Shown piece after piece: positions 53,486-61,000 of a stretch of DNA of 64,000 nt. Under the pieces are notes generated by a model. That model saw nothing but the letters and a program-made list of their open reading frames with translations. It was not told the origin of the DNA and searched no databases. A program made the translations under genes and the position numbers. The first letter of the stretch is position 1; each line of letters begins with the position of its first letter. The DNA comes from Parvularcula sp. LCG005. Lineage in GTDB: Bacteria; Pseudomonadota; Alphaproteobacteria; Caulobacterales; Parvularculaceae. Location of the stretch: contig NZ_CP136758.1 of NCBI RefSeq assembly GCF_032930845.1, positions 1,255,001 to 1,319,000 on the forward strand, read 5' to 3'.

Positions 53486-54610
53486 ATGCAAGAAGAAAAC
53501 GTCACCGGCCAAGCCAGTGTCGACCGCAAAGCCTATGGCGTCACCACATCTGGTGAGAAGGTGGATCTGTTCACCCTGACCAACGCAAATGGGCTGTCAG
53601 CCAATATCATAGAATATGGTGGGACACTGACCTCGCTGATGGTGCCTGATGCCTCCGGTCAGCTTGAAAATGTCGTTCTCGGACTTGATTCCCTCGAAGA
53701 TTATGAGGCTTGCGAAGCCTATCTTGGCGCACTGATCGGCCGGTCCGGTAATCGGATCGCCAAGGGTCGCGCGACGGTCGACGGCACAACGCTTGATCTG
53801 CCTATCAACAACGGACCCAATCATCTCCATGGCGGACCAAAGGGTTTTCACAAGGTGGTCTGGTCAGGCAAGGCGCATACTGACGATGTTGGTGCGCATC
53901 TTGAACTCCGCTATCGCAGCGTTGATGGCGAGGAAGGCTATCCGGGCAATCTGGATGTCGTTGTCATCTATAGCCTGACAAATGACGATGAGCTGCGGAT
54001 CGACTATCAGGCCCAGACGGATAAACCGACCATCTGCAATCTGACCCATCACAGCTATTTCGACCTGTCCGGTGGCAGCGCGCGGTCGGTTCTCAACACG
54101 CTGCTGCAGCTGGATGCAACGCAGTTCACCCCGGTAGACGAGACACTCATCCCGACGGGCGATTTGCGCGATGTCGAGGGCACGCCTTTCGACTTCACCG
54201 AATTGCAGCCCATTGGTGAGCGAATATCGGAGGATGACGAGCAATTGGCCTACGCTGGCGGCTACGATCATAATTTTGTCCTGACGGCTGAACCAGACGA
54301 GGACGGCCTGCGGGCAGCGGCGCTTGTTATTGATCCGGACAGCGGCCGCGCCATGGAAGTGCTGACGACCGAGCCGGGCATGCAGTTCTATTCGGGAAAT
54401 TTTCTTGATGGCTCACTGCGGGGGCAGGGCCGCGTCTATCGCAAAAGATCCGGGTTCTGTCTTGAAACCCAGGGTTTCCCCGACAGTCCAAATCAGCCTG
54501 CGTTTCCGACGACGATCCTGATGCCTGGCGATACCTATCGCTCGACAACGCTCTACTGCTTCATGACGGCAGATGAATCGGACGACGAAGACGAAGGACA
54601 TGACGACTGA
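53486..54610 (+). CDS. galM: Aldose 1-epimerase, cytosolic form
   Basis: 374 residues without a signal peptide. Catalytic His (LTHHSYFDLSGG) and Glu (GFCLETQGFPDSPNQPAFP) are present, and NRIAKGRATVDG is typical. It equilibrates sugar anomers after uptake. It is a paralogue of the lipoprotein epimerase at 39609. The C-terminus is very acidic (DESDDEDEGHDD). It lies between a GntR gene and a sodium/solute symporter. Confidence 0.94.
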   Translation: MQEENVTGQASVDRKAYGVTTSGEKVDLFTLTNANGLSANIIEYGGTLTSLMVPDASGQLENVVLGLDSLEDYEACEAYLGALIGRSGNRIAKGRATVDGTTLDLPINNGPNHLHGGPKGFHKVVWSGKAHTDDVGAHLELRYRSVDGEEGYPGNLDVVVIYSLTNDDELRIDYQAQTDKPTICNLTHHSYFDLSGGSARSVLNTLLQLDATQFTPVDETLIPTGDLRDVEGTPFDFTELQPIGERISEDDEQLAYAGGYDHNFVLTAEPDEDGLRAAALVIDPDSGRAMEVLTTEPGMQFYSGNFLDGSLRGQGRVYRKRSGFCLETQGFPDSPNQPAFPTTILMPGDTYRSTTLYCFMTADESDDEDEGHDD

Positions 54611-54713
54611 AACCGTTTTTGTCTGGAAAAGTCTCAATAATATGAGCATGGTTCGGGAAAGGGCCGGGCAGCCTTAGCTGGGGACATGGCCAAATTTCCT
54701 TGAGGGAGGAACA

Positions 54714-56363
54714 ATGCAACTCGAAATGATCGACCTGCTGATCGTGGCAGGCTACGCCGTCATCCTGTTGGGCATCGCACTTGTGGTGTCTCGAGAACCT
54801 GCGGGCCACAACAAGAATACCGAGGACTATTTTCTCGCCGGTAAATCATTGCCCTGGTGGGCTATCGGCGCGTCGCTGATCGCGGCGAATATCTCCGCAG
54901 AACAGATCATCGGCATGGCCGGGTCAGGTTTTGCCATGGGCTTGGCCATCGCGTCCTATGAGTGGATGGCCGCGATTACGCTCGTCATTGTCGGCAAGTT
55001 CTTCCTGCCCATCTTCCTCAAACGCGGCATCTACACCATGCCGCAATTCCTTGAGAGCCGGTTCGGCCCGACCGTGAAGTACGTGATGAGCGTCTTCTGG
55101 CTCATTCTCTACACGGTGGTGAACCTCACAACTGTGATGTGGCTTGGCGCAACGGCCATCAACACGCTGACCGGTCTCGACATGTTCTACGGCATGCTGG
55201 CACTTGGGGCATTTGCTGCGGCCTATTCGCTATATGGCGGCCTGAAAGCCGTGGCGATGACCGACATCATCCAAGTGGTAATGCTGATCGGCGGTGGCCT
55301 GCTGATCACTTGGCTGGCCTTGGGCCAGGTGGCCCCATCGGGCAATCCGGTGGAAGGTTTCGCCGTGCTGGCGGATGATCTGCCGCAGAAATTCAACATG
55401 ATCTTCTCCAAAGAGAATTTCTTCTACAACGACCTTCCCGGCATTGGCGTCCTGTTGGGCGGCATGTGGATCATGAACCTCAGCTATTGGGGCTTCAACC
55501 AGTACATCATCCAGCGGGCGCTCGGCGCCAAGAGCATTCAGGAAGCCCAGCGCGGCGTCCTGTTCGCAGGCTACCTCAAGCTCCTCGTGCCGTTCATCGT
55601 GGTCATTCCAGGCATTGCGGCCTTCTATCTGCAGCCAGATCTGGCCTGTCCGGGGACGGAGCTGCTGGTCGATCCGGCAAGCTATCAGGCCACCTGTGCT
55701 GCTGCCGCTGACGGCGCGGCGGTCAGTCCGAGTTTCGACCGGGCGTACCCGACCATGATGGCGCTCGCACCGGTGGGTATTCGCGGACTGATCTTTGCGG
55801 CGCTGATTGCGGCAATCGTCTCGTCGCTCGCCTCCATGATCAACTCGATCTCGACCATCTTTACGATGGACCTCGTGCGGCCGCTGATTGCCCGCGATGC
55901 GACCGAGAAGACGCTGGTCACGGTTGGCCGGGTTGTGAGTTTCGTCGCTCTGCTGATCGCGCTGTTCCTGGCCACGCCGCTGCTCGGGAATTCACCGCAG
56001 GTGTTCCAGAATATCCAGAACTGGACGGGGCTGTTCACGCCGGGGATCACGGCGCTGTTCTTCCTGGGCATGTTCTGGAAGCGGGCAACGGAGATTGGCG
56101 CGCTGGCGGCCGTTATCGGCTCTGTCTTACTGTCGCTCTTCTGGCCTAAACTGTTCCCGGGCATGCCGTTCATGGACCGCGTGGGGATCGTCTTCCTTAT
56201 CGCCATGGCGATCGGCGTTGTGGTGTCCTATCTCCAGAAACCGCAATCAGAGGAAAAGGTTGTCGATCTTCGTGGGATCAGTTTCCGCACGGGTCCCATC
56301 TTCAATTTCGCCTCGATCGCCATCATCGTGATCCTGTGCGGCCTGTATGGCATCTGGTGGTGA
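54714..56363 (+). CDS. Sodium/solute symporter (SSS family, SGLT-like)
   Basis: 549 residues with about 14 membrane helices. The SSS signatures are clear: NTEDYFLAGKSLPWWAIGAS and NISAEQIIGMAGSGFAMG, as in vSGLT-type sugar transporters. NQYIIQRALGAKSIQEAQRG and SSLASMINSISTIFTMDL are also typical. The substrate is likely galactose or another hexose, given the epimerase next door. GAGGGAGGA precedes the ATG. Terminator at 56384. Confidence 0.93.
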   Translation: MQLEMIDLLIVAGYAVILLGIALVVSREPAGHNKNTEDYFLAGKSLPWWAIGASLIAANISAEQIIGMAGSGFAMGLAIASYEWMAAITLVIVGKFFLPIFLKRGIYTMPQFLESRFGPTVKYVMSVFWLILYTVVNLTTVMWLGATAINTLTGLDMFYGMLALGAFAAAYSLYGGLKAVAMTDIIQVVMLIGGGLLITWLALGQVAPSGNPVEGFAVLADDLPQKFNMIFSKENFFYNDLPGIGVLLGGMWIMNLSYWGFNQYIIQRALGAKSIQEAQRGVLFAGYLKLLVPFIVVIPGIAAFYLQPDLACPGTELLVDPASYQATCAAAADGAAVSPSFDRAYPTMMALAPVGIRGLIFAALIAAIVSSLASMINSISTIFTMDLVRPLIARDATEKTLVTVGRVVSFVALLIALFLATPLLGNSPQVFQNIQNWTGLFTPGITALFFLGMFWKRATEIGALAAVIGSVLLSLFWPKLFPGMPFMDRVGIVFLIAMAIGVVVSYLQKPQSEEKVVDLRGISFRTGPIFNFASIAIIVILCGLYGIWW

Positions 56364-56383
56364 CTAGAGGCCCTGACTGAACG

Positions 56384-56415
56384 AAAAAGCCCGGCCAGAT
56401 GGCCGGGCTTTTTTT
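56384..56415. terminator. Bidirectional terminator after the symporter
   Basis: Stem GCCCGGCC (56389-56396) and GGCCGGGC (56401-56408), loop AGAT, preceded by AAAAA and followed by TTTTTTT. It can serve both the symporter and the convergent Lrp gene. Confidence 0.93.
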
Positions 56416-56455
56416 CATTTCAGTGGCAAGCTGCCGAACTGGCAGCCGAATCTGC

Positions 56456-56920
56456 CTAGTGATTCATCGGCAAGACGGGACGCCGAAGAACCTCCCGCAG
56501 CGTGAAGCTCGATTCAATCGAAGCGATATTCTCGGTACGCAGAAGGCTTTCCGACAGGAAACTTTCATAGGCCGTCAGGGTCGGCAGAACCACCCTGAGG
56601 AAATAGTCGAACTTGCCCGTCACGAGGTGACATTCCATGACCTCACTGCGCTGGGAGATCGTCTGTTCAAATGCCCTCAGGGCAACCTCATCCTCTTTCT
56701 CCAGCTTGACGAGAATGATAACGGTAACAGGAAGTCCGAGCACGTCACGATCAACGTCCGTCCGATATCCCTTGATCACGCCTTCTGTCTCGAGACGCCG
56801 TAACCGCCGCAGGCAGGGGGTCGGCGAAAGACCGACCCGTTCTGCCAATTCGGCATTGGTCATGCGGGCGTTACTCTGCAAATGCGTGAGAATTTTAATG
56901 TCGATCTTGTCGAGCTTCAC
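56456..56920 (-). CDS. Lrp/AsnC-family regulator
   Basis: 154 residues. N-terminal helix-turn-helix LDKIDIKILTHLQSNARMTNAELAERVGLSPTPCLRRLRRLE in the AsnC pattern, then the RAM ligand domain with VTGKFDYFLRVVLPTLTAYESFL. It probably senses an amino acid. The GTG at 56920 is preceded by AGGAGG six bases away; the longer frame (to 56989) has no support. It diverges from ppx by 180 bases. Confidence 0.92.
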   Translation of the reverse strand: MKLDKIDIKILTHLQSNARMTNAELAERVGLSPTPCLRRLRRLETEGVIKGYRTDVDRDVLGLPVTVIILVKLEKEDEVALRAFEQTISQRSEVMECHLVTGKFDYFLRVVLPTLTAYESFLSESLLRTENIASIESSFTLREVLRRPVLPMNH

Positions 56921-57100
56921 GCGATCCTCCTGCGTTGCGGACAGTCCTAAGCCCAAAACATGGGGTGCTGCAAGCAAAACGCGCAACATTCGGCCAATAG
57001 TATAAGGCTTGCCGTGAGTGACTTATTGCGCGTACCTTTTCGGGCAAGACTTGTCGGCCCGTGGTCGACGGCGAGGACGCATAAACAAAGGTCGTAAGGT

Positions 57101-58102: not shown

Positions 58103-58177
58103 CACCCCTGAGACCCCTGACAGGGTCATCGCCGGTGGAGGCTCTTGCGTTTTTGGCAATCTTCGCTATTCACCGCC

Positions 58178-58987
58178 ATGGCTCAACCTCCAAAGAAACC
58201 CACAAAATCCACCAAGCGCGGCAAGGCGCGACGGACGAATCTTGCCCAGACGGCGCTGGGTAAGGAGCCGGAGAAGCGGGGCCTGTCCAAAAAACCGCAT
58301 TCGGATGGGGAACAGCTCGCCGCGCGCGAGCTGACGACCAAGGTCAAGACGGCGCGCGGGCGCAAGATGTCGTCGACGCTGTGGCTCCAGCGTCAGCTCA
58401 ACGACCCCTTCGTTGTCCGTGCCAAGGCTGAGGGATACCGCAGCCGCGCAGCCTATAAGCTCATTGAGCTGAACGAGAAATTCAACTTTCTGAAGCCTGG
58501 CGGGCGAATCGTCGATCTGGGGGCGGCCCCGGGCGGCTGGTGCCAGGTCGCCGTCAAGGAAACCGGCAAGACAGGGCATGTGGTCGGCATCGACTATTTG
58601 GGCATGCCGCAGGTGGATGGCGCTGAGGTACTCGAGCTCGATTTCCTTGAGGACGGAGCGCCGGACCGTCTGAAAACCCTGCTCGATGGCGAGGCGGACG
58701 TGGTCATGTCGGACATGGCCGCGCCAACGACAGGGCACAAGGCAACCGATCACATGCGCATCATCGCGCTGGCCGAGAGCGCGCTCGACTTCGCCGAAGA
58801 AGTCTTGAGCCCCGGCGGTGTCTTCCTCGCCAAGGTGCTGCAGGGCGGCAGTGAGAAGTCGCTGCTTGATCGCCTGAAGAACAAGTTCAGGACGGTGGCC
58901 CACGCCAAACCCAAGGCGAGCCGAGCGGATTCCGCCGAGATGTATGTCGTCGCCATAGGCTTCATTCCACAAGGGAAGAAATCATAG
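58178..58987 (+). CDS. rlmE: 23S rRNA 2'-O-methyltransferase RlmE
   Basis: 269 residues. It methylates U2552 in the A loop of 23S rRNA. Motifs: [29 protein letters not shown] (SAM), [12 protein letters not shown] and [12 protein letters not shown] give the K-D-K-E catalytic set. A Lys/Arg-rich N-terminal extension of about 60 residues precedes the core, as in alphaproteobacteria. ATG at 58178 by family alignment. Its stop directly abuts the next ATG. Confidence 0.95.
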
Positions 58988-59524
58988 ATGACCATCATCT
59001 GCGCCTATCGTGACACCGCTGCGGGCAAGACCTGGCTCGGATCAAACAGCCGTGGGCTGGTGGGTGATACCGTCCTTCCCGGTGATGTGAGCAAATGGAC
59101 AATTTTCGGTGACTGGGCCTTCGCGTTCTCGGGCAAGGGACTTGTGACGGATGTCATTCTCGGTCTGGAAGCGGAATTTCCGAAGACGGATAAAAATGTC
59201 CATGCGGTGGTGGCGCTTATCCGCAAGGCGCTGCGGGACATGGAGATTGGCAAGGAAGATGACGGCGCCATGGATTTCCAGACCCATGGCCTGCTCGTCC
59301 ACCGGTCCGGCAAGATTTACGACATTGACGGGCATCTGTCCGTCGCGCCGATCAACGAAGACACATTGTGGGCCTGTGGCAGCGGCATGGACTACGCGCT
59401 TGGGGCCTCGCACGCCCTGACAGCGCAGTCGATCAGTCCACGCGACGTTCTGAAGTCATCAATTGAAGCGGCAATCGCACTCGACAGCGGTTGTCCGGGT
59501 ACACCGATAATCGAGGAGTTTTAG
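58988..59524 (+). CDS. HslV-like Ntn hydrolase without HslU
   Basis: 178 residues, the size of HslV. After Met removal the N-terminal residue is Thr1 (MTIICAY), the nucleophile in HslV and proteasome beta subunits. GDTVLPGDVSK aligns with HslV GNTVMKGNVKK, putting Lys35 at the place of catalytic Lys33; HslV Asp17 aligns with Asn19. WACGSGMDYALGASHALTAQ matches IGSGGPYAQAAARAL of HslV, and the C-terminus has the same helix plus EEF end. No hslU is beside it, and overall identity is low. Stop and start codons abut those of rlmE and guaB, so it is part of that operon. Confidence 0.75.
   Translation: MTIICAYRDTAAGKTWLGSNSRGLVGDTVLPGDVSKWTIFGDWAFAFSGKGLVTDVILGLEAEFPKTDKNVHAVVALIRKALRDMEIGKEDDGAMDFQTHGLLVHRSGKIYDIDGHLSVAPINEDTLWACGSGMDYALGASHALTAQSISPRDVLKSSIEAAIALDSGCPGTPIIEEF

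Positions 59525-61000
<1,476 letters not shown>

Follow-up and report, generated by a model that had tools for sequence, protein, structure and literature searches.

ATPase-less homologs of the proteasome have already been catalogued: Fuchs et al. (2021, PMC8665760) described 22 further proteasome homologs, reported no gene context that would suggest a function for them, and gave a bacterial and phage distribution for AAH and CPH. A sequence-only reading of the locus analyzed here had put it forward as a candidate for an undescribed system, and in that general form the proposal falls to the existing catalogue. For BPH, the portion of the report cited here (PMC5777263) places the genes in unrelated housekeeping operons, describes pulldowns that contained neither HslU nor the pyruvate dehydrogenase subunits of the same operon, and finds the protein inert on standard substrates, yet reactive toward epoxomicin. 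In yeast, the cited portion of PMC4792962 proposes Asp17 as part of the proteasome catalytic triad; a β5-D17N enzyme was severely impaired, with its residual activity tentatively attributed to the Asn carbonyl, and a T1S substitution cost 40–45% of activity on one substrate. Among the matches listed by a literature search of open-licence papers, none described a proteasome-like gene linked to rlmE or a natural Asn at site 17.

The window (the whole stretch of DNA analyzed, 64,000 nucleotides from Parvularcula sp. LCG005) carries such a gene. Its ORF of 178 codons at 58988–59524 on the + strand translates to MTIICAY...EEF. Its features are listed below, with residue numbers of the window protein (Thr2, Asn20, Lys36, Gly49, and Ser132) counting the initiator Met.

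58145..58987, + strand: rlmE, an FtsJ-type rRNA methyltransferase gene (Pfam FtsJ); translation may instead begin at the ATG at 58178
58971..58978, + strand: Shine–Dalgarno-like AAGGGAAG within the 3′ end of rlmE, ahead of the gene's ATG (from sequence; putative function)
58988..59524, + strand: proteasome-like Ntn hydrolase gene, 178 aa (translation, AlphaFold2 model, Foldseek, dN/dS of relatives)
58991..58993, + strand: Thr2 codon, presumed N-terminal nucleophile once Met is removed (Thr 25, Ser 6, neither 1 among 32 relatives)
59045..59047, + strand: Asn20 codon AAC, at the catalytic Asp17 site (Asn in 32/32 core rows)
59093..59095, + strand: Lys36 codon AAA, at the catalytic Lys33 site (Lys 29/32, Pro 3/32)
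59132..59134, + strand: Gly49 codon, at the oxyanion Gly47 site (Gly 32/32)
59378..59386, + strand: Gly131-Ser132-Gly133, Ser132 being the Ser129 site (Ser 30, Cys 1, Asp 1 of 32)
59483..59485, + strand: Asp166 codon, at the Asp166 site (Asp 32/32)
59513..59518, + strand: GAGGAG, likely ribosome-binding site of guaB (from sequence; putative function)
59525..61000, + strand: guaB, IMP dehydrogenase (Pfam IMPDH)

The gene is packed between its neighbors without a spare base, as the sequence-only reading had stated: the rlmE stop codon TAG (58985–58987) directly abuts the gene's ATG (58988), and its own TAG (59522–59524) directly abuts the guaB ATG (59525). GAGGAG forms the two Glu codons preceding the last Phe and the stop. 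Its position 6 bases before guaB points to probable translational coupling of guaB to the upstream gene; the 6-mer alone is not significant (2 found versus 2.02 expected in the 3.5-kb locus). A pattern scan across 58800–59700 found no promoter- or terminator-like patterns. Pfam identifies Ppx/GppA, the FtsJ-type methyltransferase (rlmE), IMPDH (guaB), and RsmB/F among the neighbors, and the genes flanking the ORF, rlmE and guaB, include no HslU ATPase, again in keeping with the earlier reading. We considered and rejected recent import of foreign DNA, since the gene resembles its surroundings in GC content (0.579 versus 0.594 for the window) and its GC3 of 0.687 lies within the range of four neighbors (0.644–0.762). 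Farther upstream, 53486–57005 holds aldose-epimerase-like and solute-symporter-like ORFs, recognized by eye, and an Lrp/AsnC regulator identified by Pfam.

The AlphaFold2 model, based on a 20-row alignment of the window protein and its relatives (A1), has a pLDDT of 93.9 and a pTM of 0.88. It displays the proteasome-β/Ntn arrangement of two helix pairs around two sheets, with four helices overall, including 51–58 and 71–84, and ends in a strand (173–177). Foldseek against the PDB returns BPH from T. denitrificans at the top (E 9e-12, TM 0.81), followed by HslVs and proteasome β subunits, and its search of viral models gives 35 matches with E of at most 0.001, including proteins named HslV, Ntn, or proteasome subunit. 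The A1 profile finds C. metallidurans BPH (5ovu) as its best PDB sequence at E 4.8e-10, with HslVs at about 1e-3. A Pfam search of the window protein, by comparison, gave no family reaching E 1. The fold and the lack of an adjacent ATPase thus uphold the proposal of a stand-alone proteasome-type Ntn protein. Thr2 directly follows the initiator Met, whose removal, and with it the exposure of Thr, is expected from the rules of methionine aminopeptidase. In a HMMER alignment to T. maritima HslV (1m4y), Asn20 pairs with the Asp and Lys36 with the Lys of that protein. The proteasome-like triad therefore has its Thr/Ser1 and Lys33 members in place and Asn20 where Asp or Glu would stand, just as the sequence-only reading had inferred from the N-terminal Thr, the Lys, and the replaced HslV Asp17.

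Of the described families, HslV, BPH, PPH, connectase, and Anbu were compared, and none of these five accommodates the protein. HslV membership was rejected, as the two HslV family models score 18.3 and 18.1 bits against cut-offs of 137 and 157.75 and no hslU lies alongside. The anticipated HslV length does hold: the genome's own HslV, encoded elsewhere, also has 178 aa, scores 271.3 and 267.3 bits (cut-off 137 for the first), and adjoins an HslU (608 bits, cut-off 362), so that a canonical hslV–hslU pair exists separately. BPH membership was rejected because six BPH-like rows, so named by resemblance to 5ovu rather than by a model, form a separate clade (95/92). PPH (about 140 residues, no helix H2) does not fit a 178-aa protein with helix 71–84 and an aligned H2 region, nor does connectase, which lacks H1/H2 and has a two-helix insertion, since helices 51–58 and 71–84 are present. 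Anbu ends in a long C-terminal helix H5, where the model has a strand, and an Anbu-like gene occupies a separate locus: this third proteasome-family gene of the genome (243 aa; PF00227 28.4 bits, cut-off 22.4) looks like Anbu and receives no name from NCBIfam.

To follow the active site across relatives, we defined a core set of 32 distinct sequences from 30 genomes scoring at least 147.9 bits with A1 (the next row scores 108.9); a G049 fragment covering profile positions 1–32 at a contig edge was left out. Site 17 is Asn in every core sequence and Asp in all 19 other aligned rows (phage-like, BPH-like, HslV, and others). The nucleophile, whose conservation the sequence-only reading had made decisive, remains Thr or Ser in all core sequences but one, and the Lys33 site keeps Lys in 29. 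The Gly47 and Asp166 sites are uniform, as are Trp37, Trp43, Asp112, and Asp114, while the Ser129 site departs from Ser twice. Eight of eight pairs of relatives give dN/dS values of 0.063–0.099, indicating purifying selection; these estimates are rough because the pairs overlap in membership, L023 and L027 each being used twice, and dS goes as high as 1.36. Together with relatives in 29 of 119 genomes, these values confirm that the gene is not a chance ORF.

The principal rival to a catalytic reading is a pseudoenzyme, in which the fold would persist as a ring for binding or structure while catalysis is lost or irrelevant. The universal replacement of Asp17, Pro at the Lys33 site in 3/32, and the loss of Thr1 with Ser129 changed to Asp in 1/32 all speak for it. 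D17N also cripples the yeast enzyme in the cited portion of PMC4792962, and Asn17 may by extension mean little or no proteolysis. However, all 28 copies in the slot (the rlmE–guaB interval discussed below) keep Thr/Ser1, Lys33, and Gly47, which is not expected from drift, and the three Lys33 losses, one of them also without Thr1, are confined to a four-sequence subclade outside the slot (96/87). We thus regard a pseudoenzyme as rather unlikely. One genome of another family (G374, L171:3316-4418) carries two tandem relatives that both have Pro at the Lys33 site; in the second copy Thr1 is also missing and the Ser129 site is occupied by Asp.

With the window protein as query, matches at E 0.001 occur in 29 of 119 genomes (its own included), all from one family, Parvularculaceae, and within the window's genus in 2 of 10. 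Outside the family, A1 finds matches at E <1e-20 in 1 of 398 order-sampled genomes (G374, with its two tandem copies) and 2 of 385 class-sampled genomes (G450 and G482); of the weaker order and class matches, the sequences retrieved proved HslV-like or otherwise distantly related. A phylum search with alignment A3, which supplied the BPH-like rows, gave 359 of 398 hits, a figure that we do not use as a count because A3 contained an HslV row and the matches are probably mostly HslV. Several searches came back empty within their scope: an exact-pattern search from the window protein in genome contigs gave 110 stretches, none confirmed; tblastn gave no match for the window protein and three relatives against GenBank phages, or for the window protein against plasmids; and a viral scan found nothing with L061 and only known contigs with L090, L091, and A4.

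The closest outside relatives that these sequence comparisons recovered come mostly from phages or prophages. A tree of 51 rows rooted on HslV groups the Asn clade with viral L091 (97/95) and places this group within Asp17 rows that we labeled phage-like; the label also covers L062 (G450), for which a phage neighborhood was looked for and none shown. Several branches exceed 1.0, and the L091 branch of 2.15 inside the Asn clade leaves its place unsure. Profile comparison likewise puts the Asn family nearest to four long phage-like rows (E 2.6e-40), ahead of BPH-like rows (4.4e-16), short phage rows (3.2e-14), and HslV (4e-12). Some of the relatives also have phage-like neighborhoods: in viral L090 a virion structural gene stands two ORFs downstream of the relative, and in G482 the relative lies downstream of tail-fibre and endolysin genes. 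In viral L091 (3686-9830), a relative sits in a head module between the terminase large subunit and portal genes. These two viral proteins and prophage-borne L061 have Asp17. A motif scan of viral contigs yielded 38 loci, 37 with an Ntn-like ORF, and all 34 whose site 17 could be read by eye have Asp there; the scan samples only phage proteins bearing a W-A-x-G-S-G-type motif, as it demands that motif. Taken together, the tree nesting, profile comparison, and phage neighborhoods make a phage or prophage origin of the Asn family likely, short of proof, and the likely phage-to-cell direction rests on few long branches. A match to phrog_1040, "peptidase HslV family" (E 4e-14; 20/20 A1 rows), was rejected as evidence of phage origin since it also matches 185 of 240 class genomes and 9 of 14 controls, including E. 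coli, and so says only that the protein is HslV-like. In G017 (L176:4403-5276), a distant Asp17 relative lies directly 3′ of another ORF on the same strand, whose end we take to resemble a HINT/polymorphic-toxin C-terminus, with the relative presumably where an immunity gene would be expected.

Such kinship raises the alternative of a phage-derived accessory gene retained for a phage-related benefit (exclusion, defence, or counter-defence). Relatives in phage head, tail, and lysis regions are consistent with this, as are the patchy presence of the gene and a slot that also houses a HigB-like toxin and a RelA/SpoT protein. The slot copies are, however, widespread in Marinicaulis-type genomes with low dN/dS, and we judge this explanation improbable.

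The conserved linkage that the sequence-only reading had asked about is real. The gene lies downstream of rlmE within 0.8 kb in 27 of 29 gene-bearing genomes and elsewhere in two; in 26 of the 27 it is also upstream of guaB, and the last (G016) has no guaB on the contig. That genome carries two tandem copies downstream of rlmE (L004), with a 251-aa ORF without a Pfam family before the first. Among the 27 measured rlmE junctions, 16 have an overlap of exactly 4 nt with the rlmE stop and one an overlap of 10, the distance in the window being 0; the remainder are apart or unreadable, and distances of 821 (L007) and 803 (L016) are reading-frame artefacts, the alignments ending 14 bp apart.

The interval itself is a variable slot. 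Reading it from guaB in 46 family genomes (slot loci L123–L169) showed both ends in 44: the gene is there in 15, rlmE and guaB are no more than 100 bp apart in 7, and at least 470 bp with other ORFs lie between them in 22. With 11 further genomes, the total for 55 Parvularculaceae becomes 26 with this gene, 7 with nothing, and 22 with other genes. The total leaves out seven of the 62 family genomes: guaB gives no match in G025 and G052, is partial in G007 and G012, and is missing from the contig in G016; G009 shows no rlmE within 2.5 kb, and in G049 the contig ends. Most often the other occupant is a phosphatase-like ORF with an HCWAG(I/M)SRS motif (12 of the 22); among the 26 genomes with this gene, 5 have the same ORF between it and guaB, for a total of 17 of the 55 genomes. 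Two examples were run against Y_phosphatase: one narrowly clears the cut-off (21.7 versus 20.9 bits) and the other does not. Pfam tests of occupants, covering nine ORFs (one, from G016, without a family and one below cut-off), further support RelA/SpoT, a chagasin-type inhibitor (I42), DUF2855, and a HigB-like toxin, as well as a DsbA-like protein on the opposite strand.

Position therefore says little about function, and tight packing beside housekeeping genes is not in itself evidence of a common one. The earlier suggestion of a tie to 23S rRNA methylation and GMP synthesis is not sustained, and we consider such a tie unlikely. In the form of a role with rlmE or guaB, for example in IMP dehydrogenase turnover or control of ribosome maturation, it draws on the frequent rlmE linkage and the recurrent 4-nt overlap, and is improbable: sister genomes fill the same interval with the unrelated genes above, others, or none, two of the 29 place the gene elsewhere, and within the genus it is absent from 8 of 10 genomes. 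That the protein is an alternative peptidase borrowing the genome's HslU is very improbable, for although it equals HslV in length and the genome encodes an HslU, its HslV similarity is weak (18 bits against a cut-off of 137) and HslU was absent from pulldowns of BPH, the closest structure, in the cited portion of PMC5777263.

Purifying selection, a near-complete catalytic center, the variable slot, and the BPH precedent lead us to favor, with moderate confidence, an ATPase-independent proteasome-like Ntn hydrolase on the HslV/BPH side (group I of Fuchs et al.) that is specialized or slowed. The impairment of yeast D17N, the losses of Lys33 and Thr1, the inertness of BPH, and the long branches count against this reading. 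Under it, removal of Met would expose Thr1, or Ser1 in some copies. Lys33 would activate this residue, with the Asn17 carbonyl presumably polarizing Lys33 less strongly than Asp, and the putative center would be Thr/Ser-Lys-Asn. The protein is predicted to be probably ring-forming, like BPH with its tetradecameric double ring, and would probably have a narrow substrate or act slowly. Its translation may be coupled to both rlmE and guaB, in which case the operon would provide steady, growth-linked expression and not a common pathway. A bolder version, which we hold only tentatively, is that a phage-type subunit was captured, its triad rebuilt as Thr/Ser-Lys-Asn and fixed by selection, and the gene moved into the slot for constant expression. 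This would add a new enzymatic class to the proteasome-like family, such as an acyl transferase or ligase (cf. connectase) that is slow and substrate-specific, and not a degradative protease.

A natural clade with fixed Asn17 and an otherwise kept center, standing beside Asp17 phage kin and relatives outside the slot with losses of Lys33 and Thr1, allows a direct test of the role of Asp17 and of how proteasome-like proteins shift from protease to something else. It provides a clean test case for the re-tuning of a proteasome-like protease family.

Among the known systems, AAH, CPH, RPC, and DPH (group I), compared by description only, share the compact group I subunit and a bacterial distribution. 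The short phage rows, which resemble PPH in length and lineage, have in common with the window protein the Thr-Lys-Gly core and the W-A-x-G-S-G-xx-A-(L/I/M)-G-A motif for which the scan selected. In contrast to the window protein (178 aa, helix 71–84, Asn17), the median length over 32 phage rows is 145 aa, the aligned short ones lack the H2 region, and site 17 is Asp in 34/34. HslV shares the fold, length, and Thr1-Lys33-Gly47, but has Asp17 in place of Asn17 and an adjacent hslU where the window has none, and the window protein falls far below its family cut-offs. Unlike the window clade, the BPH-like rows keep Asp17 (6/6), form their own clade (95/92), and lack the Trp37/Trp43 and Asp112/Asp114 signatures. 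BPH (5ovs, 5ovt, and 5ovu) is nevertheless the closest solved protein in both fold and sequence, and resembles the window protein in having no propeptide, no known partner ATPase, a Thr or Ser nucleophile, and a place in an unrelated housekeeping operon.
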